Shown here in pieces: positions 5,515 to 41,910 of a DNA stretch of 64,000 bases. The position numbers and the translations under genes are program-made. This stretch comes from Liolophura sinensis (lineage: Eukaryota > Mollusca > Polyplacophora > Chitonida > Chitonidae), in contig NC_088301.1 in assembly GCF_032854445.1 (NCBI RefSeq), positions 27,264,402 to 27,328,401 on the forward strand, written 5' to 3'. How positions within the stretch are numbered: the stretch's first letter is position 1; each line of letters starts with the position of its first letter. The notes under the pieces were generated by a model. That model searched no databases. It worked only from the letters and a program-made list of their open reading frames with translations, and was not told the DNA's origin.

Positions 5515-5836
5515 CTTGATTTTGTGGAGAAAATGCTTCATTATTGTCCAGATGATATATCAAAAGCATCGGTCATCTGATGAACTGCTCAGTCATCGAT
5601 GAATGAGCATCCGTTGTTTATTTTATGATCACTAACCATCGGACTTTCTCATTCTGTGACTTTGCTCAATATCACAGCGCATTGAATTAATTATCTTACT
5701 GTAAACTAAAGCATATTTATTATGTGAAAATTCTATTGGGCAAGGTACACATTACTCGTAACTCGTAAATCACTCGTCCCATGTGATGAAGCAGTCCTTG
5801 CTGGCTCAGTCAACTCGATGCTAGTTTCAATGACCA

Positions 5837-6610
5837 GTGGATAACCTCTCAGTGCAGATAAAACTCTTAGATTTTCGGATAACCTATGGAATTCTAAATG
5901 CTCTGCTCTTTCCTTCGGATTTAAGACCATTAAGAGCTGTTATATTCACAGATTCTCTCAGTACTTTACAGTCAATGACGTCATTTAAGTGGACAAATTG
6001 CTACCCTGTCCTGTACGAAGTAGTTTTTCTGTCGTCCTCTCTATTCTTTGCAGGTCTTGACATTTGCTTGGCTTGGGTTCCTGGACATTCTAGGGTGCCT
6101 GGTAATGAACAAGCAGATAAGCTAGCCAAACGGGCCCTAAGGCTGCGTGATGTCACCTCTAATCTCAAACCGACCATATCCGAGGCCCTGAATGAAGTCA
6201 TTATCATTTAAACTATGGCAAACTGAGTGGGATGCTTCAGAGAAGGGTCGTTTTTATCACCCATTTAACCCTGTTGTCAAACTTCATAACAGCCTCCCTT
6301 TCTCCTTTTCTAGGAGAAAAGCAGAAATCTTGTGTTTCCGACTTCGGTCAGGGCATCTCCCAGTTAACACGTACTTAAAAAGATTCACGGTAAGAGATTC
6401 ATATCGGTGTAATGTTAGGCTGAGGAGACCATCCATCATGTTTTACTCGTGTGACCGCAGCACACTGCTCAGAGAAAAATCTTCTTTTCTGACCTTGTAG
6501 ACGTTGGAATTGTTAACCCAACTCTGAAGAGAGTGCTTTGCCCACCGAAAAATGCAAGTTTAGTTTTTAAAGCTGTGAGGAATTATTTATGTAGAATCCA
6601 CAGATTTTAG
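5837..6610 (+). pseudogene. RNase H and C-terminal end of a non-LTR retrotransposon, decayed
   Basis: The first segment (5837-6205) reads an RNase H-like core: AVIFTDSLSTLQS with the first catalytic Asp, then WVPGHSRVPGNEQADKLAKRA, the His/Glu/Asp block typical of the RNase H that follows the reverse transcriptase in I/Jockey-type elements. A frame change near 6195 leads to KLWQTEWDASEKGRFYH and RLRSGHLPVNTYLKR, the usual post-RNase H region. A second frame change near 6485 is needed to reach a stop at 6608-6610. No reverse transcriptase domain was seen upstream, so the copy is 5'-truncated and dead. The family name is uncertain. Confidence 0.75.
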
Positions 6611-14300: not shown

Positions 14301-17300
14301 TCTTTATAGATGCACTACTCGTTTCAAATCTAAGAAAGCACAAAACAGGAAAATGAAGAGAAAACAGGAAAATGAAGAGAAAACAGGAAAATGCAAACTT
14401 CATATGAAAACCTGCTGTGAAAAGTTATTTAACATACCTCGTGTCTTTCAAACAGCATTGAAAACTGTTGACCGCTTCTCTTTACATGATTTCGGCCTAA
14501 TTTCATACCTTTTATACTTTTTTATTTCTTTGGTGGTTTATGTTATACGTCCTTTTTGTGAATTGGCCTTGGGATGATTGACTTGGAACGTCCCCAATAG
14601 TTGACAGCTAGCATACGAATGTTTTCTTTCGGTGTTTTTTTTTTATTTTTCTTTAAGTACATTGGAAAATAATTTTTGCGTGGGCATTTGGGGCCAAGTT
14701 TTGCTATAATGGATGCGCGCACATTTCTGTATAAGCATAATCTTAATGTTATGTATATGTCTAATGATAAATTTTATTTTTGCTCAAGTTTGTTGTTTTC
14801 TCCAAACTAAAGCGTTGAACGCTTTTATAACATTTTAACGTTTTAATTATAAATTATTATTGTAATTCAGATTTAACACATGTATTTGGATATAAAGAAC
14901 AAATTTGCATTCAAATAAATTTATTCAGAAAATCTGTGATGGAAATCCGAAATACCCGAGAGTCCATATTACCCCACTTTATCGGACCACTGTGTCCTTT
15001 CTTCATTCTATCAAGTATTATGTATTTTCATTTTCAGGTGCAAGAACCAAATGCTACCAGATATTCAACGAGAAACAATGTTTCTCCACGTCTTCCCCTT
15101 TTACAAATACACTGGGGAAGGCCCCCGAATCCCCGGCTGAACAGAGAGTTACCTTCTCCTTGTACACTCCAAAGAACACCAGATCTGCGCAGCTCCTAAA
15201 TGGGGGAAATCCAAAGAGTATTGCCTCCTCTCGACTCAACCCTAACAAGATGATTCGCGTTATCATACATGGTTTCCGGGACAGAGGAAACAAAGCGTGG
15301 GTCAAAACAATGACCAAAGAGCTGCTGAAAACGGTACAAAACAACCAGTTTTTAGTGTCAAAATTGAAACTTGAATTCAGCGCTTATATTTGGACGTTAG
15401 AAGTTACAACTGCGAACACAGTTATGTTTTTACTTCTGAAGACATTAACTGATATTAATCAGGGGTTTTTTGAAGTTCATAGTTCCATTTTACAAATGGT
15501 CATTTTCCACTATAGGCAGTTCGAGAAGAACAGGTTTGAGCCGAGAATTACCACATTTCAGATACTAGAGGACATCTTGTGCATGGATCATAATTACGCA
15601 TGCGGAAATTTCACATTTCGTTTGATCACATGAGAGGTCCATCATGATGTATTATAAACGCTATAAAATCCATTGCTCCTGTGTTCAGGGTACGTTTTAC
15701 CTCGCACAGTTCAGTGATTTTGAAATTTTCTTGGGTTCTCTGTCTATACCAAATAGATTTTGTAGCATTTCATATATTTAAATGATTGGAGTATTACGCC
15801 GTACTCAAGAATATTTCACTTATACAACAGCAGTATAGTGGAAGAAAACCGGACCGAGCCATGGAGAAACCCTCGACCATCTGTAGGTTGCTGGTGGATC
15901 TCCCAAAGTACAGCTGGAGAACAAGCCAGCATAAACACGACTTTGGCTCGGTAGCACGATAACTCCTCGGGCACGGACATCCCGGTTAGTCATTTCAACA
16001 GGTTATAACTAAAGCAGTTCACTGGTCTGGTATTTAGCTGATTTGCACTTTATAGTGTAATATCTCTGGCGTTGATTTTGCTGGCAGCAAACATGGGCAC
16101 ATGTCAGTGTTTGATGCAGTTAGGATCTAATGTTTCCAAACAAACCCGTCAAATATTTAGCTGAAGATGCTGATATCACAATCTGACATACATTAATGAG
16201 GCTTTATTTCTGTTTTACAGGATGGATCAAACGTAATTGTGGTCGACTGGGAAAAGGGAGCTATGAAGTCGTTCTTGAATTATTTCCAGGCTGCAGCCAA
16301 CACGCGCGTGATCGGCGCAATGCTCGCTAAAATGGTGAAAATCATCTCAACCAGTAAAAAGATTTCTTACAACCGCTTTCATCTGATTGGACACAGCCTT
16401 GGCGCTCACATCGCTGGTTATGCCGGACGAAGATTGTCTGGTCAGATAGGGCGAATTTCAGGTAAGCTGTTCTGCTGATAAATTCATGAAAATCCGCATA
16501 ACCTTTTTAAATATTCGCAAAAACTGAAAGTGTTTTAAACCTATTTCACACTTTGGTATTTCACCTGTGGTTAAGATAGACGGACTATCTTAATCTTGGA
16601 CGTCTCACTTACTATTAAATGGATGTTGTACATCTTCAATGAAAATTTCGGAAAGGTAGTAAACACCTAGTATTAAGCAACAAATATAAAAAATGCACGC
16701 CTGAAATTTACACAGTGGAATCAAACGACTTGTGCATCTCTGTATTTTAGGGCTGGACCCTGCAGGCCCGGCTTTCGAGAAATTCAAGGAGCCAGTCAGA
16801 CTGGACAGAGGGGACGCTAAATTTGTCGACGTGATCCACACCGACGGCGACAAACTCATAAAGGGAGGTAAGTTGTGTTCAACGCCTCAGTCCGTCGAAA
16901 TATGTAACTATACCTAACGCTAAGGCAACCGCGGAAAATAAAACACATCAGGATGTGTTTGCAGATATATAAACTTCATCTATCAGTTACTAGCTAATTT
17001 AAAAATGGTTCTAGTAAGACATACTTGGAAGGTGTTTAACGCCGTGCTCAAAAATTGTTTGATTTACATCAAGTAAAGGACGAGAGATACCGGTATTCGG
17101 GAAGTAAGTCGCCACCCTTCGTCATGCAGTTCATTCTAACACGGTCTAACACGGTGTGTTTTTGTGAATATTTCAGGTGCGGGAACCTTAAAGCCTATGG
17201 GAGATGCGGATTTTTACCCTAATGGCGGTCGAAACCAACCAGGCTGTTCTCAGAAGTTTATTGACCATGTTAAAAACTGGTTCCGTGGTGGCTTCAAAGG

Positions 17301-18005
17301 TATGCAGACAGGTTTCGTGTTATCACCCATCTGACTGTTAATAAGAATTTTGTATTTTCATTTCCCATCCATGAACAGCATCTGTGCTTCCTAGGAGCAC
17401 CTGTAGAGCTCCTCATGTGGATTGCAACATAATATGAAAATTGTATACTCATATTTACATAAAAGCAATACCGAACCAGTGCACCAGCGTCACATGTTTA
17501 TCTGTATCAATTCATTACCGCGTTAATTAAAACGGTAACAAATACTGCACTCCTAAAATAGGGTCGGTCCTCCAGCCGCTGAGACTGCGAGGCTAACTTG
17601 GCAATATTGTTGCCCTATAAAAGGAGCCTCCGTAAAGTGTCAAATGTTCGATAATTTCAAACAAAATTTGTATCGCATGGTCCTATATTTGATTCGCCAA
17701 TTCCGGAATAGAAAGAAAGCTTAGCCAATGAAATGGATGGCATATTTTACTATATTTTTCATATATTACATTTTACCCTGTCTTGTTATAACAAGTATCT
17801 TATTCCGATTTTAGGGCTCACCATGAGTATAAGTTGTGACCACATGCGATCGATTGCCTTCTACACAGAGTCTATCAACACCTCCTGCACGTTCCGCGCA
17901 TGCGGTTCCACCGGATGTTCCAGAATGGGCTTCCACGCCAGTCCCAGCAAGAAAGGATCATTTTCACTAAAAACCAACTCGAAGTCCAAATTCTGTAAAA
18001 ATTAA
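10894..18005 (+). CDS. Lipase A: secreted pancreatic-lipase-superfamily enzyme without PLAT domain
   Basis: Six coding exons: 10894-10951, 15038-15333, 16221-16461, 16751-16867, 17177-17299 and 17815-18005. All borders are GT-AG, phases 1,0,1,1,1, sum 1026 nt, 341 aa. Residues 1-20 are a signal peptide ([20 protein letters not shown]). The alpha/beta-hydrolase core has the HGF oxyanion-type motif ([10 protein letters not shown]), GHSLGAH with nucleophile Ser177, GLDPAGP with Asp201, and CDHMR with His288. A cysteine-bracketed lid of about 24 residues lies between PGC and SISC. Family members hydrolyse ester bonds of tri- or diacylglycerols or phospholipids outside the cell; which substrate is not shown. 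The protein stops after the catalytic domain, so colipase-type PLAT binding is absent. Against B and C, its last exon is 45 nt shorter and lacks one cysteine pair. Intron 1 (4.1 kb) holds a SINE and a (TA)n tract. Confidence 0.92.
11265..11334. repeat. (TA)n microsatellite
   Basis: About 35 uninterrupted TA units in intron 1 of lipase A. Confidence 0.95.
11520..11720 (+). repeat. SINE-1 copy with B box
   Basis: Includes 'ggtcgctgtgagttcaagtc', the box-B-like part of the tRNA-derived head, and runs to the 'aaaacaccagtcaaataaaa' tail. It is in intron 1 of lipase A. Confidence 0.85.
13985..14080 (+). repeat. Degenerate SINE-1 3' end
   Basis: Shows 'gatataagtgatatattctt gagtacggc' followed by a decayed tail, within intron 1 of lipase A. 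Confidence 0.55.
14339..14396. repeat. 18-bp tandem repeat, 3 copies
   Basis: Three copies of 'aaaacaggaaaatgaaga', in intron 1 of lipase A. Confidence 0.8.
15780..15990 (-). repeat. SINE-1 copy
   Basis: Minus-oriented, diverged copy in intron 2 of lipase A. The 3' tail is read first on plus ('tgattggagtattacgccgt') and the head is decayed near 15960. Confidence 0.75.
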
Positions 18006-23935: not shown

Positions 23936-26900
23936 ATGTCTCCATTTTGGGCTGTCATTTTTATCCTTGGTTTGTCAAGCGCAAACGGTAATGTATAGTT
24001 GTTCAATCATAACTAGAAAAAACGCAAAAGCTTTTATTATTTCAAAACAGAACTTGGCAGGCTTAGATCAATGCCTGTGGCTTCGTAAGCAGTTGATTCT
24101 AAGCTATATGATATTTGATTTTATAGCAGATGGCTGTCGGTGCGAGCGACATCTCGTAATTTGGAACCCAGTTTCGCATATTTCGGCTTTGTGCTTATAC
24201 AGCAAGCGGAATGTCGGTATCTGGACAATGGTTTACTCTACCCATATATAAACCCACGCATAATCGTCCTCCATGTAGTGTGCTTTCTGAAAGATTAGTT
24301 GTAGTATTTATTTATTCATTTATTTGATTGGTGTTTTACGCCGCACTCAAGAACATTTCACTTATACGACGGCGGCCAGCATCATGGTTGGAGGAAACCG
24401 GGCAGAGCCCGAGGAAGTTGTAGTTAGAGCATTAAAAAGTTTAATTGTAATAAATTGTATATTTTTATCTATAAATTTTGTAGAACGCTCTTTATCATCT
24501 GCCAGTCACACATCCAAACCCTTGAAAAAAGGGTTTGGATGTATTCAGAAATTCTTGTCTCAGCATCGTCATGGGTAATTACCGTTACCGAAACAGGTCA
24601 TTTATTTATCAGTTCTAACATAGATCCAACTCAAATAACAAACAAAACCGTTTTTTTTTATATTTGAGGATGGTGGTTTTTCTCTAATGATAAACGAGAG
24701 GAGGATGAAAAGATATGTCTGGCGGCACCACAGGCAGACCACAAACTTCAGGTTGAGTTTGTCCTCTTTAGCCGCCAAAATAGTGGCGGTAAAGACGTCA
24801 CTTCCAACTCGGATTCCATCCGCCAATCAGGCTTCGACGCTGCGAAAGACACGAAGTTCATCATCCACGGATACACGGATCTGGGATCCTCAGTCTGGGT
24901 TCAGAGGATGGTTCAAGATTTCCTGAAATATGTGAGTATAATTAAATCTTAATTGATGAACTGTTGTAGTTACGAAGATGTTAATGTTTGCTCTATACTC
25001 AATAAAAGCATCTGTGTACAAAAGGTACACAAGATGTGTACAACAGGTACACATTGATTGTGACAAATTTGCACACATTTGCACAAATCTTATGCAATCC
25101 AGCTTTTAATGTGTACTAAATTGTGTACCTGTGATACACATCCTCTTTACATCGCGAACTACCCAAACGCACGTGTACAAAACAGTACACATTTGCTTGT
25201 TGAGAGTAGAAAGTTTATATGTATTGTGGGCTGAAAATTTTCGGGAATAAGTGTTTTTGAGGAGAGCTGTTAACCTGAACATGAGCACGAGAAGATTCAC
25301 TTTGATACTTCAACACCATTTTAACGGTGTAAATTCCTCTGAAATTGTTTAGAACTTTCTCCCTGAAGAGAGTTTGTTGCTCCTATTTTTTGACAAGTGA
25401 TTTCTTTCGAAGTCAAGAATATTTCACTTAAGCAATTAACACCGATCGTGTAGTTTTATGGGTGGGTAGTGGAAAACTAGCTGAGCTCCCAGAAAAAAAT
25501 TACAACTTTCCTTGGCAAATACCTGGAAATAGCCTGACTGAAATCTGCGGCAGAATGAGTTGGCGTTGAGTTCATGCTGATGTTGTGAAGAACATTCGCA
25601 CGAGGTGCGCGTAGATTCTACTCCTCGTGCTGTTACCTTGGTGACAAGCTCCATTGTTTCCGCTAGTGCTTACCTTGGTTGAGCACCTCTTGCCCGCCTG
25701 CCATACATGTAAGTCACATGTGGGAGAGTTCGTTAGTAGCCCGACAAAGCTCGTTGGTTTAACCCGGGCACCTCCCAAAATTTAGCGCCATTGTATAAGT
25801 GAATACTTGACTATGGCATTAAGGAAGCAGCAAATAAATAAATATATTCTAGTGAAGACAAAGAGTAAAAAAAAAAGCGAAACTTATTATCCCCTACTCC
25901 CAAAATAAATTTAAGTTTTGTCCACATCTCTTGTAAGAACTTTCATTCCCATGCACAGATGCGTTACAGTGCTTTCTTTTTTAAACCGTCTGAAGCGAAA
26001 GCTTTTTCGGACAGCGTAATATGGATTTCTCTTTTGACGTTCCCCTAAAGCATGACGTCAATGTCGTGTGCGTCAACTGGCAGAAGGGAGCAGACAGCTT
26101 GTACTACGGTCAGTCGGCAGCCAACACAAGGCGGGTGGGCGAGATAGTCGGGGATTTCATCAGACAGCTGAAGGAAGTGATGGGAGCCCCGTACAACAGC
26201 CACCACCTGATAGGACATAGTTTGGGCGCTCACATTTCAGGTTTCGCCGGGGCAAGTCTTAACGGACAAGTGGCCAGAATTACAGGTGAGCGTGATATCT
26301 TCTGGATAGAACAAACACTTACGTAGAGAATCAAGCCAAATGGTTTTCAGATTCTAAATATTTAACTCACCTGGATATTATCAAGTATAAAACAAGATGA
26401 GGGATGACTTTAAAGGAAAACAATGTAACCTCTGCCACCCAATTATTTGTGGGATTAAGAAACATTCTATACTTCGTATATCTCAGTTTCTACCTCGCTT
26501 TATTTTGATCGCAAATTAATTATTTTTGGTTTCTAACAACCTTATATTATATGATCCTTCATGATAACCTTTTTTGGTGTGAAGTTCAGAATAGGCTGCC
26601 CTCTAAATAACCATACGTTGTAACATGGGTAACGATGCATGCGCATGTCTGTGTGCGTGCCTGTTTCAGGAATGGATCCTGCAGGGCCGTGTTTCCGGTT
26701 TGCGGGCCCCGCTGACAGACTAAGTGACGACGACGCCATTTTTGTTGATGCCATTCACACCGATGGTGACCATCTTCTGCAAGGCGGTAAGAAATAGCAC
26801 AGCTTCGGTTCCGAAAGAGACTTCAGCAATCAAAGACATTGTATATTGTTGTCTACTCCATGTGTAATAATTGAATAGAAGTTAACGTGTTTTTTTTTCT

Positions 26901-28766
26901 CCTTTGCAAGCATATGTTTTCACATGTGGTTTGAACTTGTCCCTGACGACATAAATTTGTTAGCTTTCAAGAAAGATTTAATGCTCTCTAAAAGTTCATC
27001 GAATTAATCTAAAAAAAATAGTCTGTTATTTTTAGAAGAAAGACTGTTGCCTGAGTGATGCTAGGATGTAGTCTGTTATCCCAGCAGATTGCTGTGTTAA
27101 ATATAACACACACATTCTATTAATCAGTTATAAAGATTCTATTAGAAGAATAGGATATTATGTTGAATATGACATAGTATCATGTTATAATAACAGAATA
27201 CACTCTAGCATCACTCAGACAACAGACTTTCTGTTAAAATTAAAAGATTAATTTTTTGAGTGTAATGATTACCGAAAGTTCATCAAATTAATGTATCTAA
27301 TTTTTGTTTAACGTCGTATTCAAGATAATGCCAATGAGCTCCGCTCTCCGTGTATATAGGACCAGGCGTATCCATGAAAGCCGTTGGCGTTTCTGGAGCC
27401 AGATTAAACCTTACTATTCTGTTAAAAAGCCTACAGCAGCCACATCCCCAAGTTACTCTGAAATCGTTGTGTCCTTCAGGTTTTGGAACTGAGTTGCCTA
27501 TGGGAGATGCCGACTTCTACCCAAATGGCGGAGAAAAACAACCCGGATGTGACAGCTATTTTTGGCAGCATCTTGTTGACTTCTTTAAAGGCTGGTTTTC
27601 GGGTAAGTATGCGTCCAAGAGGTTCGAGTTTGGAAAAATGTGTTTGTGACATACTGAGGTAAAAGACACGTATGCTATTGTGACAGATGGATACGTGAGA
27701 ACCAACAGGTGACAAAGTACGACAAAGACATGAGTGAGTTTGTACCATGAAGATACTACAACAGCGCAGCGCCATATAGCTGAGTTTTAACAGTACAGTT
27801 ATTAAAGATTTTTCTTTAGAAAAATAGTGTACCTAATTAACACAATGAGAAAAAGGACAACGATTAGACTTGATTGTTAATATACAATAGAATAATCACA
27901 AAACTCACTAAAGTAATAGCAATATATCATAATTCATTAGAATTAGAATGCACTTAACGGTATCCACAACCTGGCGTAGCGTTATTACATGGCTAGTGCT
28001 AAGCCTTAACACGGTTCAAGAGCAGTCTCTCGCGTAACCATAAACTTGCGTATCTTAATTACATGGCTAGTGTTAGACACAAACACGGTTCAAGAGCAGT
28101 CTCTCGCGTAACCATACACTTGCGTATCTTAATTACATGGCTAGTGTTAAACACTAACACGGTTCAAGAGCAGTCTCTCTCGTATTTATAAACTTGCGTA
28201 TCTTAATTACATGGCTAGTGCTAAACCCTAACACAGTCCAAGAGCAGTCTTCCTCGTAACCATAAACTTGCGTATCTTAATTAAATGGCTAGTGCTAAAC
28301 ACTAACACGGTTCAAGAGCAGTCTCTCGCGTAACCATAAACTTGCGTATCTTAATTACATAGCTAGTGCTAAACACTAACACGGTTCAAGAGCAGTCTAT
28401 CGCGTAACCATAAACTTGCGTATCTTAAGTACATGGCTAGTGTTAAACACTAAAACGGTTCAAGAGCAGTCTCTCGCGTAACCATAAGCTGCCGTATCGT
28501 AATTTTATGTTTTGCGTTAAACCTTAACAGGGTTCAAGAGCAGTTTGTCGTGTAACCATCTCCGAGTTCAGGATCTGTTCCGTGAGTCCATCAACCCGGC
28601 CAACTCCTTCAAGGCTTACCCCTGCGGACATCAGGACGAGTATGACAAGTGTACCAGCTGTGGTTCCCGGGGGTGCTCCCGCATGGGGTACTACGCCTCT
28701 CCCTACCGCCATGGCATCTACACCATGCGTACCCGCAAGGCGTCGCCCTTCAGCTTTGATTATTAG
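23936..28766 (+). CDS. Lipase B: secreted pancreatic-lipase-superfamily enzyme without PLAT domain
   Basis: Six coding exons: 23936-23987, 24669-24931, 26051-26285, 26670-26786, 27480-27602 and 28531-28766. Phases are 1,0,1,1,1, sum 1026 nt, 341 aa. Exons 4 and 5 match lipases A and C in length exactly (117 and 123 nt). Signal peptide MSPFWAVIFILGLSSANG, then GWWFFSN. Catalytic core: FIIHGYTDLG near the oxyanion hole, GHSLGAH with Ser162, GMDPAGP with Asp186, CNHLR with His273, and a Cys-bracketed lid rich in aromatic residues (YFWQHLVDFFKGWFSG). The C-terminal segment has four further cysteines in the CGHQ...KCTSCGSRGC pattern of family disulphides. There is no PLAT domain. Role inferred: extracellular acyl-ester hydrolysis. 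Intron 4 carries a foldback element, and intron 5 carries a 74-bp array made from the exon 6 acceptor junction. Confidence 0.93.
24305..24418 (-). repeat. SINE-1 fragment
   Basis: Minus-oriented 3' half, in intron 1 of lipase B, ending at 'ccgggcagagcccgagg'. Confidence 0.85.
24510..24542. repeat. Perfect 14-bp hairpin
   Basis: acatccaaaccctt / aagggtttggatgt with a 5-base loop, in intron 1 of lipase B, about 125 bases before exon 2. There is no T-run after it. Confidence 0.85.
25012..25190. repeat. Cluster of GTGTAC/GTACAC inverted half-sites
   Basis: Several spaced inverted hexamers occur in intron 2 of lipase B: gtgtacaaaaggtacac, gtgtacaacaggtacac, gtgtacctgtgatacac and gtgtacaaaacagtacac. 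Spacing inside the pairs is 3 to 6 bases. Confidence 0.6.
25395..25855. repeat. Two degenerate SINE-1 relics
   Basis: A minus-oriented relic starts near 25400 ('caagaatatttcacttaagc'). A plus-oriented relic ends near 25850 with 'aaataaataaata'. Both are in intron 2 of lipase B and heavily diverged. Confidence 0.45.
26992..27292. mobile_element. Foldback/MITE-like element with flanking direct repeats
   Basis: In intron 4 of lipase B. The left arm includes 'agactgttgcctgagtgatg' (about 27041-27065); the right arm includes its near-complement 'catcactcagacaacagact' (about 27208-27230). The arms continue outward with AATTAATC-type matches. The element is bracketed by an 18-base direct repeat (aaagttcatcRaattaat at 26991-27008 and 27275-27292) with one mismatch. 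There is no coding capacity. Confidence 0.6.
27965..28558. repeat. 74-bp tandem array made from the intron 5 / exon 6 junction of lipase B
   Basis: The words 'ggttcaagagcag' start at 28013, 28087, 28161, 28235 (variant), 28309, 28383, 28457 and 28531: exactly 74 bases apart. The last is the real start of exon 6. Each upstream unit is about 45 bases of intron tail plus a copy of the first 29 bases of exon 6, ending at the CAT of the catalytic His codon. In most upstream units the acceptor AG is changed to ACG and the Cys codon TGT reads CGT. Confidence 0.9.
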
Positions 28767-28956: not shown

Positions 28957-29190
28957 TTTTTTATTGGTGTTTTACGCCGTACTCAAGAATAGTTCACTTA
29001 TATGACGGCGGCCAGCATTATGGTGGGAGGAAAATAGACGACTATCCGCAGGTTGAAGCCGCACCTTCCCACGTATGAGAGGAATCCTGCATGAGCTGGA
29101 CTTGAACTCACAGCGACCGCACTGGTGAGAGGCTCTCTGGTCATTACGCTGCGCTAGCGCGCTAAGCAACCGAGCCACGGAGCTCCCAAC
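28957..29190 (-). repeat. Near-full-length SINE-1 with A and B boxes
   Basis: Minus-oriented. Read on the minus strand it begins 'gctccgtggctcggttgctt' (A box region), has 'gcggtcgctgtgagttcaag' (B box) and ends in the common tail. It lies directly downstream of lipase B. Confidence 0.9.
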
Positions 29191-31605: not shown

Positions 31606-31854
31606 AGGTATCGACCGCCAGTGGTTAAGTAAACATTGATTATATACAACGAAAGACACCGTGTTACGACGGTATCTCTGATACATGTCACTGATTAAAT
31701 ATTGTTGTGTCCTGTGCATGATTTGCCCAATCTGAATTTTTTCTGTTTTATGTTTACATCTTTCTTTTTGGGTTGAAAATGGTTTTAAACAATGTCAATG
31801 AATAACATACCGGCTATTAACTAAGAAGTTGTTTTTCGTCTGCATGTGTGTGGT

Positions 31855-32440
31855 GTCTAATTTTGTTTCCAGTGAGATTCAAGAGTGTGGTGATTAGCAG
31901 TCCGCAGACTCAGTGCACCGTGAACAATTTTTCCTCTGTCTAATTTTGTTTCCAGTGAGATTCAGAAGTGTGGTGATTAGCAGTCCACAGACTCAGTGCA
32001 CCGTGAACAATTTGTTCCTCTGTCTAATTTTGTTTCCAGTGAGATTCAAGAGTGTGGTGATTAACAGCCCGCAGACTCAGTGCACCGTGAACAATTTTTC
32101 CTCTGTCTAATTTTGTTTCCAGTGAGATTCAGAAGTGCGGTGATTAGTACTCAGCAGATTCAGTGCACCGTGAACAATTTGTTACTCTGTCTAATTTTGT
32201 TTCCAGTGAGATTCAGAAGTGTTGCGTTTAGCAGTCCACAGACTGAGTGCGCCGTGAACAATTTGTTCCTCTGTCTAATTTTGTTTCCAGTGAGATTCAG
32301 AAGTGTGGTGATTAGTACTCAGCAGATTCAGTGCGCCGTGAACAATTTGTTACTCTGTCTAATTTTGTTTCCAGTGAGATTCAGAAGTGTGGTGATTAGT
32401 ACTCAGCAGATTCAGTGCGCCGTGAACATAACAGGTTTTT
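31855..32440. repeat. 84-bp array, 7 copies, each with an acceptor-like 'ttttgtttccag'
   Basis: Units start with ttttgtttccag at 31861, 31944, 32028, 32111, 32195, 32279 and 32363; spacing is 84, or 83 where one G is lost. Each unit is a pyrimidine-rich stretch plus CAG, followed by about 60 bases. The 84-base period keeps one frame open (a 28-residue periodic peptide, VRFRSVVIS...). No gene is supported here. Confidence 0.85.
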
Positions 32441-35987: not shown

Positions 35988-37691
35988 ATGTCTCCGCTTG
36001 GAATCCTCATCGTTTTTCTCGGAGTTCACACGGCTCAAGGTATTAAACATTCTTCCTTCCTTCTTTATTTACTAATTTGTTGGTTTACAAAGTGCACAAG
36101 ATAATTTTATTTCATGTAAAACTTCAGATGTAGTTAAAAAAAATTGTGTAGACACAGGGCCTGTAATAAATACGCACACTTCGCCTTGTAATTCGTTAGC
36201 AGAATTCAGCACGTTAAAACGCAACAAATCTGTGTGTATTCCAATTGTTCCTGTGACGCAACAAGTATTGTATGAAGTATCATTGTATTCACAATGAACG
36301 TATTATTTATTTATTTGATTGGCGTTTCACGTCCTAGTCAAAAATATTACGTTTATACGACTGCGGCCCGCGTTATGGTGGGAGGGCACCCAACTATAAC
36401 CTGAGGAAACCAGCAAGAGCTGGACTTGAACTCACTGTGACAACACTTTCTTTAGATTCCTCAAGTTTGAGATATGTATAGTTGCATAGATTCAGTTTGG
36501 GAATATAGCCGATCTCTTGGATAGACCAGCGCCTCCCCCCCCCCACCCCTCCCAACCTTGTTAAATGAACTCTGATATGCGCGATATGGGATAAAATGAA
36601 AAACAGATGATCCATTATCAAGCAGTTGTTTTATATCTTCTTCAAATTTGAAACCAACGTCATAAATGATTTGCATTTTCAACTTTTCAACTCCCAGTAA
36701 TTTATTTTAACTGGAAAGAACAATGAAAGAAATATTGCCTCTGGGAATTAAGTTTACGCCATTTTCCGGTTTTGTTGAGCTGGAAATTGGCCCGAAATGG
36801 TGAATTTTAATAAAGTCGACCCATGTTTACCTGATGTGACCTCTTCGTACGTCGATCATATCGTGAAAGTGACATCATCCAAAAATATGTCACAACCTTT
36901 CAAAAAGCTCAACGGAAAAACGTGGACAACGATGTTGTCTTAAAAGTTTGTTCTGGAGTATGAAGCATCAGGTACTTTTAAAATGACAAGAAATTGACGC
37001 TTTGACAGCGAGTTGATGTGCAAACATAGGTGGGCATGGGCATGCAGCACGCGAAAACAATAGCTTAACGTGTAAAATATCCTGACAGTTGTGAGTAAAA
37101 GAGAGATATCAGGCAATTTCCTCTCGTATACGTCACGGAACGAGATAAAACTTATTCAGGAGACGAAATAAATCCATGCACCTAACTTTTGTCCACGACG
37201 CGTAAGTTTTGGAAGATATCTTCGTTCCGCCCACTTGATCATAGTGTGGTGTGTGGTGGGGGGGGGGGGGGGGGGGGGGCTCTGTTTGAGTACAAGAATT
37301 TTACTATGGACGTCGTCTAGGCTGTTCACATCTGATTTGATGGTTGAGGTCGCGAGTTCGAATCAAGCTCCCGCTGCTTGGCTGTGGTCTTAAGTTAGTT
37401 TTCTTACAGGTTGGTGGATATTTTCTAACAAGAAAAAAGAAGAAGACAACAAGATATGTGCGGCGACACCACAGGATGATTCCGATCTTCAGGTGGAGTA
37501 TACCTTGTACACAACGGAGAACCCTGACAATGGAGATAATCTGACTCCTGACGCCGACTCTCTCAGACAGTCAAAGTTCAAAGCCGACAGGGACACGAAA
37601 TTTCTCATCCATGGGTACACCGACCAGGGATCTTCCGATTGGGTGAAAAACATGGCCAAAGAGTTCTTGAAACATGTGCGTAGCGAATACC

Positions 37692-37753
<62 letters not shown>

Positions 37754-40643
37754 ATTTATTTTTTATTTATATATATGTTCAAATCAAGCTGGTTATAGCA
37801 TGATATAGAGCAGAGCAATGACTCTATCACTAATGCGACGTAAAACACAAATTAAATAAATAAGTAAACAAATAAATATGTATGGCAATGTACACATACC
37901 GGTACTGCTATATCTGAGTTGAGCATTAGAGTGAGGATCCGTAGGTATTTCCTTACAGATTTGAATCAAGACCCTTTCAATAAAAAGATTGTGGGTAAAG
38001 CACCAATCAAACAGGCCTTGGAACTAAATACACTCCATGAATCCAGAAGCTATCTATAATGCATAATACAGTAGTGGTGCGGGAAAGAACACTTTTCGAA
38101 TATATAATCCTAGACGGAATCCCTTTGGTAGGGTTGTGAGTATCTGCACAGAGACCTTCTCGTACTTGATGCTTTCTGTGAATAATCTTTTCTCAGAAGA
38201 ATTTACTGGAAACCTTGTAGAACATGAGCTTATATGTAAGCTAAGTAATTCCGCAGACATTGATTTTTGAATATCTCAATATTTCGACTTTAATAAAGTC
38301 ATCCTCAGAAGAAGTGTGCCAAGTGGAGCACCTTTTAGCCATATGTACGCGTAGGCTCCCAGAAGAGCATAATTAACAATTTAATTAACAAACATGTCTA
38401 ATAAAATAAGCTTGATATTAAACGAACATTTATGATGTTGTTTCAATGTTACAACCTCTTCGGAGTTAATTTGCTTATTTGGTATGCAAAACTATTCAGT
38501 GGATCAACTAGATTATGGACTATACGCTTTAGATGGTGTGGAAATTTTCCAGTTAGATTTCTTCGTTACTTATGCAAACTGAAAGTATCGTAAGATTGAT
38601 ACAATACCGGTGTGATCTCTGATATATGTATGAACTTCCGGTTATCTAACTGTCTAGCTTTCCTGAGATAGCTGCGCTAATAAAAGAAACCAACAACGTC
38701 TGTTTCCCACACAGGAAGACCTAAACGTTGTTGCTGTCAACTGGCAGAAGGGAGCAGACAGCCTGTACTACGGTCAGTCGGCAGCCAACACGAGGCGAGT
38801 GGGCGAGATGGTCGGGGATTTCATCAGACAGCTGAAGGAGGTGATGGGAGCCCCGTACAGCAGCCAGCACCTGATAGGACATAGTCTGGGCGCTCACATC
38901 TCAGGCTTCGCCGGGGCAAGTCTTAACGGACAAGTCGCCAGAATTACAGGTGAGCGACAGGAATGTGGCACACTTGAGAGAAAGACTACTAACAGAGAAA
39001 TCAGTCGATTTACTGAAGCTAAATTATTTGGAAGAAATTTTTCTGGGGGATCCGATTGTGGCATTGTTTCGAAAGTGGATTAATTTACCTTCGTTTTTTT
39101 TTATCCTTTTCTAATTTGTTTCGCACTGATTCTACTGTTTGCATTTCAGCATATCAGTCCTTTTAAATGGAGATGTACATGCACAGCTGTTACTATGCGA
39201 TGCAGTGTGAACGGAGTCATAGCTTGACATTTGATGTCTTTAAAATCTAGGCCTTAGAAATAGACATTCATATACTAATCGCAATAATGCCGGAAAAACA
39301 CAAGGAATGTTCCATAGGCACATCAATTTAACCGGAATCCAAGTTGTGTACCATGCTAGTACGTAAGCTATCCATTATCAAAACATGTATCTCAGCTGCG
39401 GTTTGATTGCAACTGTTCATACATCCAACTGTGGCGATATAACAAAGCGCCTCCTAGATTTCCAAAAAGTACACCTTCCCAGCTTTTAAATTCTAAGTTT
39501 CATGAAGAACATCAGAATTTATTGTCCTTACGTCTATCTGTACGGTAAGTTTCTAAGATCTTTCATGCTATAACCGCGCGCTGAATCTGCCTTATTCTCG
39601 GAAATAAGAGAGGGCTGTTTTTGCACATTGCACCCTTTTTTTTATTAGCACCCTTGAAGCTCTTCAAACTAATCCTGGTTAATATGAAAGCTCACCCACT
39701 TTCTCCTCTTGTTGAAAGCCCATCGTTTACAAGTCAATACAAACTGGGTATAAGTTAGGTAAAGTATCACACTGTGTTAACTGCATGTTTTTTTCAGCGT
39801 ATACACTATTTGACAGCAGATGTACAGCTGTATTATAAGATACACTTCCTCAGTTTTGCGTTTTTAACAGGGTTGGATCCAGCAGGGCCGTGTTTTCGGT
39901 TTTCTGGGCCCGATGACCGACTTAGTGACGACGACGCCATCTTTGTTGACGCTATCCACACGGATGGGGACTTGCTTCTACAAGGGGGTATATTTGTACT
40001 CTCCTTGGCTTAAGCTTTGAGGGTGTGGGGGCGTATATATGATTGTCGTGGAGAAAATGTGATTCTGTCAAGTTTTTGTGACATTGCCCATTCCTATTTC
40101 TTATCTTTTGAGAAACACATGGACTTCCTAAAGGATAATGCACTAAAAGCCAGTTTCACAAACCAATTTCGGTCTTTAGACTTAAATGTTACTCCAAATT
40201 AAATACAAATAATAAAATTAAATGCATAAAACTGATAAATTTGTGACCGATGATTCTATGTTGTGGTCACACAAGCGTAGCCCACATTGAGCATTCAGTT
40301 TCAATTATTTGCTTTTTAATGAAATTTGAAGTTGACGAAGGACTTCAGCTTTAAAAAAAAAAGCCTGAAACAGATCCCAAATATCGAGTCACATTTATTT
40401 GTCACGAGAAGTTGACATTTATAACATTTTTTTAACATACTTCAGGTTTTGGAACTGAGTTACCTATGGGAGACGCCGACTTCTACCCTAATGGTGGAGA
40501 AAAACAACCCGGATGTGACAGTTGGATCTGGCAGCATCTCGTGGACCTGTTTACCAAGTGGATAGATGGTATGACAGAGGGGGCTTAAAGCCAGTGTTAT
40601 ACGTTGGCAGATATATATAAGGTTTTAGTCTCTATACTGTAGT

Positions 40644-40675
<32 letters not shown>

Positions 40676-41910
40676 ATATCGGGTCTTCACATCGGGTCTT
40701 CACATCACTTTTCGAAAGTATCCCACTTGTGAAAGGCTTTGATACAATACGATACACACCGGTGTCCAGTGTGTATAGATTGCCTTAGTAACCGTTGTTT
40801 CTGTCAACAGCATGGCTGTGTATGTCGGACTCTTGACGGTTGGTTTACGAATGTCTGTTTCGACGTATAGATCCTAGAAATCTGGCACAGTTTCACACGT
40901 TTGTTCAGCTATCATTATCTGACACAATCGCCAGGCTGCACACATCAGCACACTAGCTGTAACATCAGTTAGAGTACTCTGGAGGTGAATGGCTTCAGAC
41001 TGGTGCTATAGTCCGATAGCCTGTGGCTAAGAGGACAGTCCGTTAGAATTAAGCACCGCCGTCATAGCATCGAACTAATGTTAATTACTTAATTAATTAA
41101 TGATATAGTGGCCAGGTTTATGAAGGGTGGAGGAAACCGGAGTAACCCAGAATAAACCATTGACCTTTGGCAAGGAACTGGTAACCCATTCCACGTGTGA
41201 CATACGTTCCAGTGGTGAAAAGGCAGGCGATCCAGTGAATGTCACCAGAACTGGTTTTCACCGGTTATGTACGTGTGATCATTTTTCAACACCACGCTGT
41301 AGTCTTTATTATTATGTCGAGACAAGTGAAATAGGGGTATATTTTTGGAGCCGAGTTGAAGACATAAGGCGATAAGAAATAACTGATGTCTGTACCTTGT
41401 AGTTGCCATTTTTGAAATAAGTACCATTTTTGAAATAAGTACCATTTTTGGAATAAGTTGCACTTTTGAAATGATAAATGATTATCACTGATATAATCCT
41501 GCTGACTACTTTTGAAACAAAAAAAAAATGCACTGTTTTCATAAATGATCAATATGTTTTAAATGTGCAATTTACTTTGATAAAAATGATCTTTTTTATT
41601 CCATTCTATGACATTAATTTTAAAGCTGATATGTTGTTTCAACATTTGTTCCTACGTGCCTTTTTTTGCCACAGGTTTTACAAGCAGTCTTGCGTGCAAT
41701 CACCTCAGGGTGTTAGATCTATTCAGGGAGTCCATCGACCCGGCCAACTCTTTCAAGGCTTACCCCTGCGACAGCTATGATGATTACAATGACTGCAGAA
41801 CCTGTAGGTCTCGGGGGTGCTCCAGGATGGGTTATCACGCCTCTCCAATGAAGCATGGGATCTACACCCTGCGCACACACAGCAAATCTCCGTACTCCTA
41901 CGACTATTAA
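35988..41910 (+). CDS. Lipase C: secreted pancreatic-lipase-superfamily enzyme without PLAT domain
   Basis: Six coding exons: 35988-36039, 37410-37675, 38715-38949, 39871-39987, 40446-40568 and 41675-41910. Phases are 1,0,1,1,1, sum 1029 nt, 342 aa. Signal peptide [18 protein letters not shown], then [17 protein letters not shown] as in lipase B. Core motifs: [17 protein letters not shown] with Ser163, GLDPAGP with Asp187, CNHLR with His274. The lid lies between PGCDSWIW and SLAC. Cysteines in the last exon follow lipase B ([18 protein letters not shown]). B and C share exon 3 almost base for base after its first nine codons, but differ much more in exon 2. No AATAAA was found close to the stop. 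Function inferred from the family: extracellular acyl-ester hydrolase; substrate not determinable here. Confidence 0.93.
36302..36450 (-). repeat. SINE-1 copy, internally deleted
   Basis: Minus-oriented, in intron 1 of lipase C. It starts 'tttatttgattggcgtttca' on plus and reaches the B box side at 'gaactcactgtgacaac'. Confidence 0.75.
36532..36555. repeat. C-rich run
   Basis: About ten consecutive C then ACCCCTCCC, in intron 1 of lipase C. Confidence 0.8.
37258..37279. repeat. Poly-G run of about 22
   Basis: An uninterrupted G run about 130 bases before exon 2 of lipase C. Its length is unreliable in most sequencing chemistries. Confidence 0.85.
37695..37751. repeat. (TA)n microsatellite next to a splice donor
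   Basis: It starts about 20 bases after the exon 2 donor of lipase C (37676). Confidence 0.95.
40640..40670. repeat. (TA)n microsatellite
   Basis: Short TA tract flanked on both sides by 'ctgtagtatat', in intron 5 of lipase C. Confidence 0.9.
41085..41320 (-). repeat. Degenerate SINE-1 relic followed by an R3 fragment
   Basis: About 41085-41220 keeps 'ggtggaggaaaccggag' and 'cccattccacgtgtga' of SINE-1. About 41245-41315 reads, in reverse complement, 'acgtacataaccggtgaaaa' of family R3. In intron 5 of lipase C. Confidence 0.5.
41403..41475. repeat. 18-bp tandem repeat, about 4 copies
   Basis: Copies of 'ccatttttgaaataagta', the last ones diverged, in intron 5 of lipase C. Confidence 0.85.

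Follow-up and report, generated by a model that had tools for sequence, protein, structure and literature searches.

The last intron of a lipase gene in the chiton Liolophura sinensis ends in a row of near-copies of its own 3' boundary, and this locus raises the question of how a working splice junction came to be amplified and whether the copies matter to the gene. The window, meaning the whole 64,000-nucleotide stretch of DNA that was analysed, contains three lipase genes in tandem, named A, B and C (about 14896-18005, 24668-28766 and 37394-41910), and the array belongs to lipase B. It is very probably a neutral minisatellite of the kind called "mirages" in amphioxus, which would have passed through duplication, decoy mutation, amplification and homogenisation and have little or no function.

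The lipase B junction and its array

The joined exons of lipase B match the Pfam family Lipase (PF00151, E 2.1e-86). Solved structures that they match include pancreatic lipase related protein 2 (1bu8, E 7.7e-62), along with pancreatic lipase (1lpa, E 1.5e-61). The CNHLR stretch of the protein aligns with the CNHLR of both structures, and its histidine is presumably the catalytic one. The use of the true acceptor keeps the lipase reading frame going. The exon behind this acceptor, termed exon 6 in the earlier note, is the fifth of the coding exons modelled here, a count that begins after any first exon upstream. The last exons of lipases B and C are identical in 55 of 77 residues. The features of the junction are as follows:

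27480..27602, forward strand: penultimate lipase exon, with the donor GTAAGT behind it (exon model)
27959..27968, forward strand: faint left margin of the array, aligned in register with the unit's exon part
27969..28486, forward strand: seven decoy units of 74 bp each, made of 29 bases of exon start and 45 others, nearly all intron tail, with AC for the acceptor AG
28235..28236, forward strand: shifted AG in decoy unit 4 (acceptor score -4.47, at the 55.3rd percentile of AGs in the window)
28487..28560, forward strand: terminal unit with the true intron/exon junction (unit alignment)
28529..28530, forward strand: true 3' splice site AG (in-frame join to the preceding exon; distance to the Cys codon as in paralogues)
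28531..28766, forward strand: final coding exon of the gene, stop codon included; His codon at 28557-28559 (PF00151, E 1.3e-10 for the exon alone)

Tandem Repeats Finder reports an array at 27984-28559 with a period of 74, 7.8 copies, 88% matches and 0% indels, and a second repeat finder gives the 74-base spacing all through it. Unit by unit, the array consists of eight head-to-tail units of exactly 74 bases (27969-28560), of which the last is the true junction and the seven upstream copies are intronic. The homologous exon starts lie at 28013, 28087, 28161, 28235, 28309, 28383, 28457 and 28531, the last being the true one. Both repeat finders and the joining of the exons thereby bear out the original reading of eight exon starts at exact 74-base spacing with only the last in a real exon, and the comparison of units agrees that each upstream copy holds the intron tail and the first 29 exon bases (28531-28559 in the true exon, ending at the His CAT codon). 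The slightly earlier array start once given, near 27965, fits the weak in-register similarity to the left of unit 7. Between any two decoys 3-14 of the 74 bases differ, and between a decoy and the true unit 17-22, so that the likeness of the units is not due to chance.

As to other repeats in the window, 12 minisatellites, a list picked by hand from the repeat-finder output, cover 5,183 of the 64,000 bases. A dispersed SINE-like element occurs in 12 places, e.g. at 29011-29027 (core matches within 3 mismatches: 12, against 0.07 expected), and an RNase H domain at 5834-6208 (PF00075, E 1.7e-7) is perhaps a retroelement fragment. An origin of the 74-bp unit from a dispersed repeat or transposon was considered and rejected: matches to the unit in the rest of the window do not exceed 12 bases, and a search of the species' own genome (609,464,459 bases in 632 contigs) with 28190-28600, by a method that skips very common words, returned only the array itself.

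Origin and turnover of the decoy units

All seven decoy units have AC instead of AG at the homologous acceptor, and in all seven the Cys codon two before the catalytic His reads Arg; they share ten differences from the true unit in total. The earlier note was right about both changes but had ascribed them to most decoys only, and its suggestion that the AG is back in the unit at 28235 does not hold, for the AG at 28235-28236 is no reversion, the lost one having stood two bases upstream.

The polarity of these changes follows from the paralogues. Junction scoring covered 15 of 16 lipase loci, L040, whose Cys codon was not located, being left out. The exon starts exactly 20 bases before the Cys codon in 14 of these 15 genes, lipase B included, and the junction is therefore old. 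As the scoring demanded an in-phase AG and placed the rows by the Cys-x-His motif, only the constant 20-base distance counts as a finding; in the row of L035 an AG further upstream was picked wrongly. A working acceptor cannot do without its AG, and the Cys is present in the solved lipases compared as well. AG and Cys are thus the ancestral states, and both losses are derived on the decoy side. For one Leu codon, the decoys with their consensus CTC come nearer to gene C (CTT) than the true exon with its TTG does, a weak hint that the decoys may keep an older state there.

The inner units 1-6 are on average 3.5 bases off the decoy consensus, the edge unit 7 is 8 bases off and the true unit 18, and unit 7 and the true unit have four states in common that are absent from the consensus. 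Alike inner units with divergent edges are the pattern of repeat turnover that spares the edges of a cluster. Divergence between decoys and true unit is also uneven along the unit, with 14 of 44 sites different in the intron part and 3 of 29 in the exon part (Fisher P 0.047), as expected if the true exon alone has been constrained. The view that a real exon border was amplified is upheld, given that the last unit enters the lipase exon in frame and at the distance from the Cys codon common to the family. Unit 7, the outermost, already carries the Arg codon and lacks the AG, so both changes most likely arose before the amplification.

The array thus probably has a simple history. Slippage or unequal exchange would first have produced a tandem duplicate of 74 bp across the border between the last intron and the last exon. 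Of the two copies, the one downstream would have remained the true exon start under selection, whereas the one upstream, now intronic, could have lost its AG and Cys codon through neutral mutation. This mutated copy would then have multiplied to seven, with ordinary repeat turnover keeping the copies alike. Lipase B would be spliced normally, the array being removed with the intron.

Acceptor strength and possible effects on splicing

Acceptors were scored with generic weights, which discriminate poorly, over the 3,513 AGs of the window. The true lipase B acceptor scores 0.48 (90.5th percentile). Other AGs remain in each unit with negative scores throughout, the best one within the decoys at -0.75. 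The AG at 27686, in the same intron but outside the array, reaches 0.83, above the true acceptor, which would thus not be picked out by the matrix alone. Other lipase acceptors tested score 4.68 and 4.75 in gene B and 4.09, 0.59 and 8.06 in gene C, and with a site at 0.59 among them a weak acceptor is not unusual. When the AG is ignored, six of the seven decoy sites score from -1.2 to -6.2 and unit 7 scores 1.02; the loss of the AG does matter for unit 7, while the other decoys are poor even apart from it. The pyrimidine fraction at -24 to -5 is 0.40-0.50 in the decoys and 0.60 in the true unit, and the T differences between decoys and true unit divide 7 sites to 2 (P 0.18), no significant sign of selection on the pyrimidine tract or of pyrimidines having been lost by the copies and not gained by the true unit. 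Were the homologous decoy sites used, the reading frame would close early: for units 1-6 at a stop in that very unit, shortly past the His codon, and for unit 7 at one a unit further on.

These properties bear on the proposal that the decoys have been disabled by selection, either because amplification was tolerated only after the AG was lost or because an AG-less state spread as units with AG mis-spliced to a truncated lipase. The uniform loss of the AG, the early stops and the fact that unit 7 with its AG would outscore the true acceptor all agree with such selection. It is nevertheless unlikely. From the intron divergence, the chance of losing the AG in the founder by drift on the decoy branch is estimated at 0.29, or at 0.52 if all change is placed on that branch, so that drift could suffice and selection is not needed; the other AGs, all of low score, persist in each unit; and the donor-side arrays of two paralogues (see below) keep GT in most of their units. 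Set against the acceptor AG that is gone from all seven decoys, this retention also counts against a neutral origin, but the contrast amounts to very few independent observations, since each array descends from a founder. The earlier note had held that the disabling change was either present before amplification or selected; the former fits best, and the latter is not required.

A far less probable alternative is that the array modulates splicing, its branch-point-like and AG elements or its length tuning a rather weak true acceptor. The lipase B acceptor is the second lowest of the 15 lipase genes scored (the mis-picked row of L035 included), but the lowest, that of L037, is without such an array, as is every other paralogue junction located, and no AG within the decoys scores above zero. 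Expansion of a single junction copy by the assembler is scarcely credible: the authors of the amphioxus work report that the draft genome had one globin mirage wrongly put together (PMC3087553), but the chiton decoys differ among themselves, and the assembly of this chiton, published as Liolophura japonica, is reported to rest on HiFi reads with a mean of 8,347 bp (PMC11068029), far longer than this array of about 600 bp of diverged units. The neutral reading is thus the one retained here.

Exon-border arrays in the lipase family and in other genomes

The survey of the lipase family comprised 13 genome stretches and the window and covered 69 of 70 Pfam lipase matches, with the ends of the Pfam matches, not mapped exon ends, taken as edges. 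A minisatellite lies over an edge in four of the 69 exon matches, namely at the lipase B junction and in three donor-side arrays at the loci L033, L034 and L035. The last-exon acceptor junction was located in 15 of the 16 lipase loci, of which B alone has an array at this place, and none was found at the corresponding junction of the neighbours A and C, both of which were examined.

The arrays of L033 (2157-2961, 16.8 copies) and L034 (2617-3936 on the reverse strand of the locus, 27.8 copies) have a 48-bp unit and lie over the 3' edge of an early exon. The two loci are close paralogues and their arrays probably go back to one event. Exon end and donor are joined in each unit, and GT is kept in 16 of 17 units examined in L033 and 22 of 24 in L034, the true donor included. 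In L033 the lipase frame is open through the first six array units, with a stop in the seventh. The array of L035 (3426-3957, about 46 bp, 11.4 copies, 70% matches) lies at the 3' edge of the exon with GYSLGAH, which we take to be the lipase Ser motif, and several of its units have GTAAGT- or GTGAGT-like sites.

Arrays with a period of at least 20 cover 11,928 of the 174,513 bases of surveyed lipase sequence. From this density 9.36 of the 138 exon edges would be expected within arrays, and 4 are observed (probability of as few, 0.067); the edge-overlap count used a period of at least 14, and the same four edges are found either way. There is no excess of arrays at edges, and nothing points to a targeting of exon borders.

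Mirages were described in amphioxus as minisatellite-like duplications of intron-exon boundaries in the globin genes BflGb6 and BflGb9 and also in Adh3 and TnC (PMC3087553, PMC3902484). The clusters vary in length, and RT-PCR by the authors suggests no interference with splicing (PMC3087553). Like them, as far as these accounts go, the lipase B array shows (i) tandem units spanning the boundary; (ii) the authentic junction within the same array; (iii) homogenised inner units, with the cluster boundaries excluded from homogenisation and divergent; (iv) a unit of 74 bp, inside the reported range of 10-160 bp (PMC3087553). By its published description BflGb6 has the same anatomy (PMC3087553), whereas BflGb9 is of the donor-side kind. 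The retention of splice signals, a non-defining trait, sets the chiton array apart: many, though not all, of the amphioxus repeats described keep them, as do the L033 and L034 arrays with their GT, while none of the seven lipase B decoys keeps the homologous AG and one has a shifted AG. The amphioxus mirages are documented by transcripts and length variation, and the chiton array by the sequence of one assembly.

Two further cases are comparable in part. The potato RdRp gene is reported to have gained an intron by a tandem duplication across an intron-exon boundary (PMC4974935), and human duplicated genes are reported to carry variable internal tandem repeats, likewise minisatellites, at exon-intron borders (PMC2812944). 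The reports describe a new spliced intron in the former and transcript evidence of altered splicing in the latter, in contrast to the chiton array, known from DNA. A literature search found no mirage report from molluscs, which does not prove that none is in print.

The lipase B array is a real, well-preserved and probably inert mirage in a mollusc. Border-spanning minisatellites are thereby placed in this phylum, with acceptor-side and donor-side arrays within one gene family, and a base rate is supplied, lipase exon edges lying in arrays no oftener than array density predicts. Whether arrays of this kind contribute to intron gain or exon variation becomes testable with the chiton examples, as published RNA-seq of the species exists. 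A tentative extension is that gene structures change by way of mirages quite generally in animal genomes rich in minisatellites, and not in amphioxus alone: the idea draws on the recurrence of mirages on both sides of chiton lipase exons and on the in-frame 48-bp array of L033, which could already add 16-residue blocks if downstream donors were used.

Another array of the window, at 31854-32428 between lipases B and C, consists of seven units of 83 or 84 bp, each of which opens with the identical acceptor-like TCTAATTTTGTTTCCAG (score 1.89). The first 26 bases are invariant among the seven units, and the array could mark the border of an unmodelled exon, as a second case of this kind.
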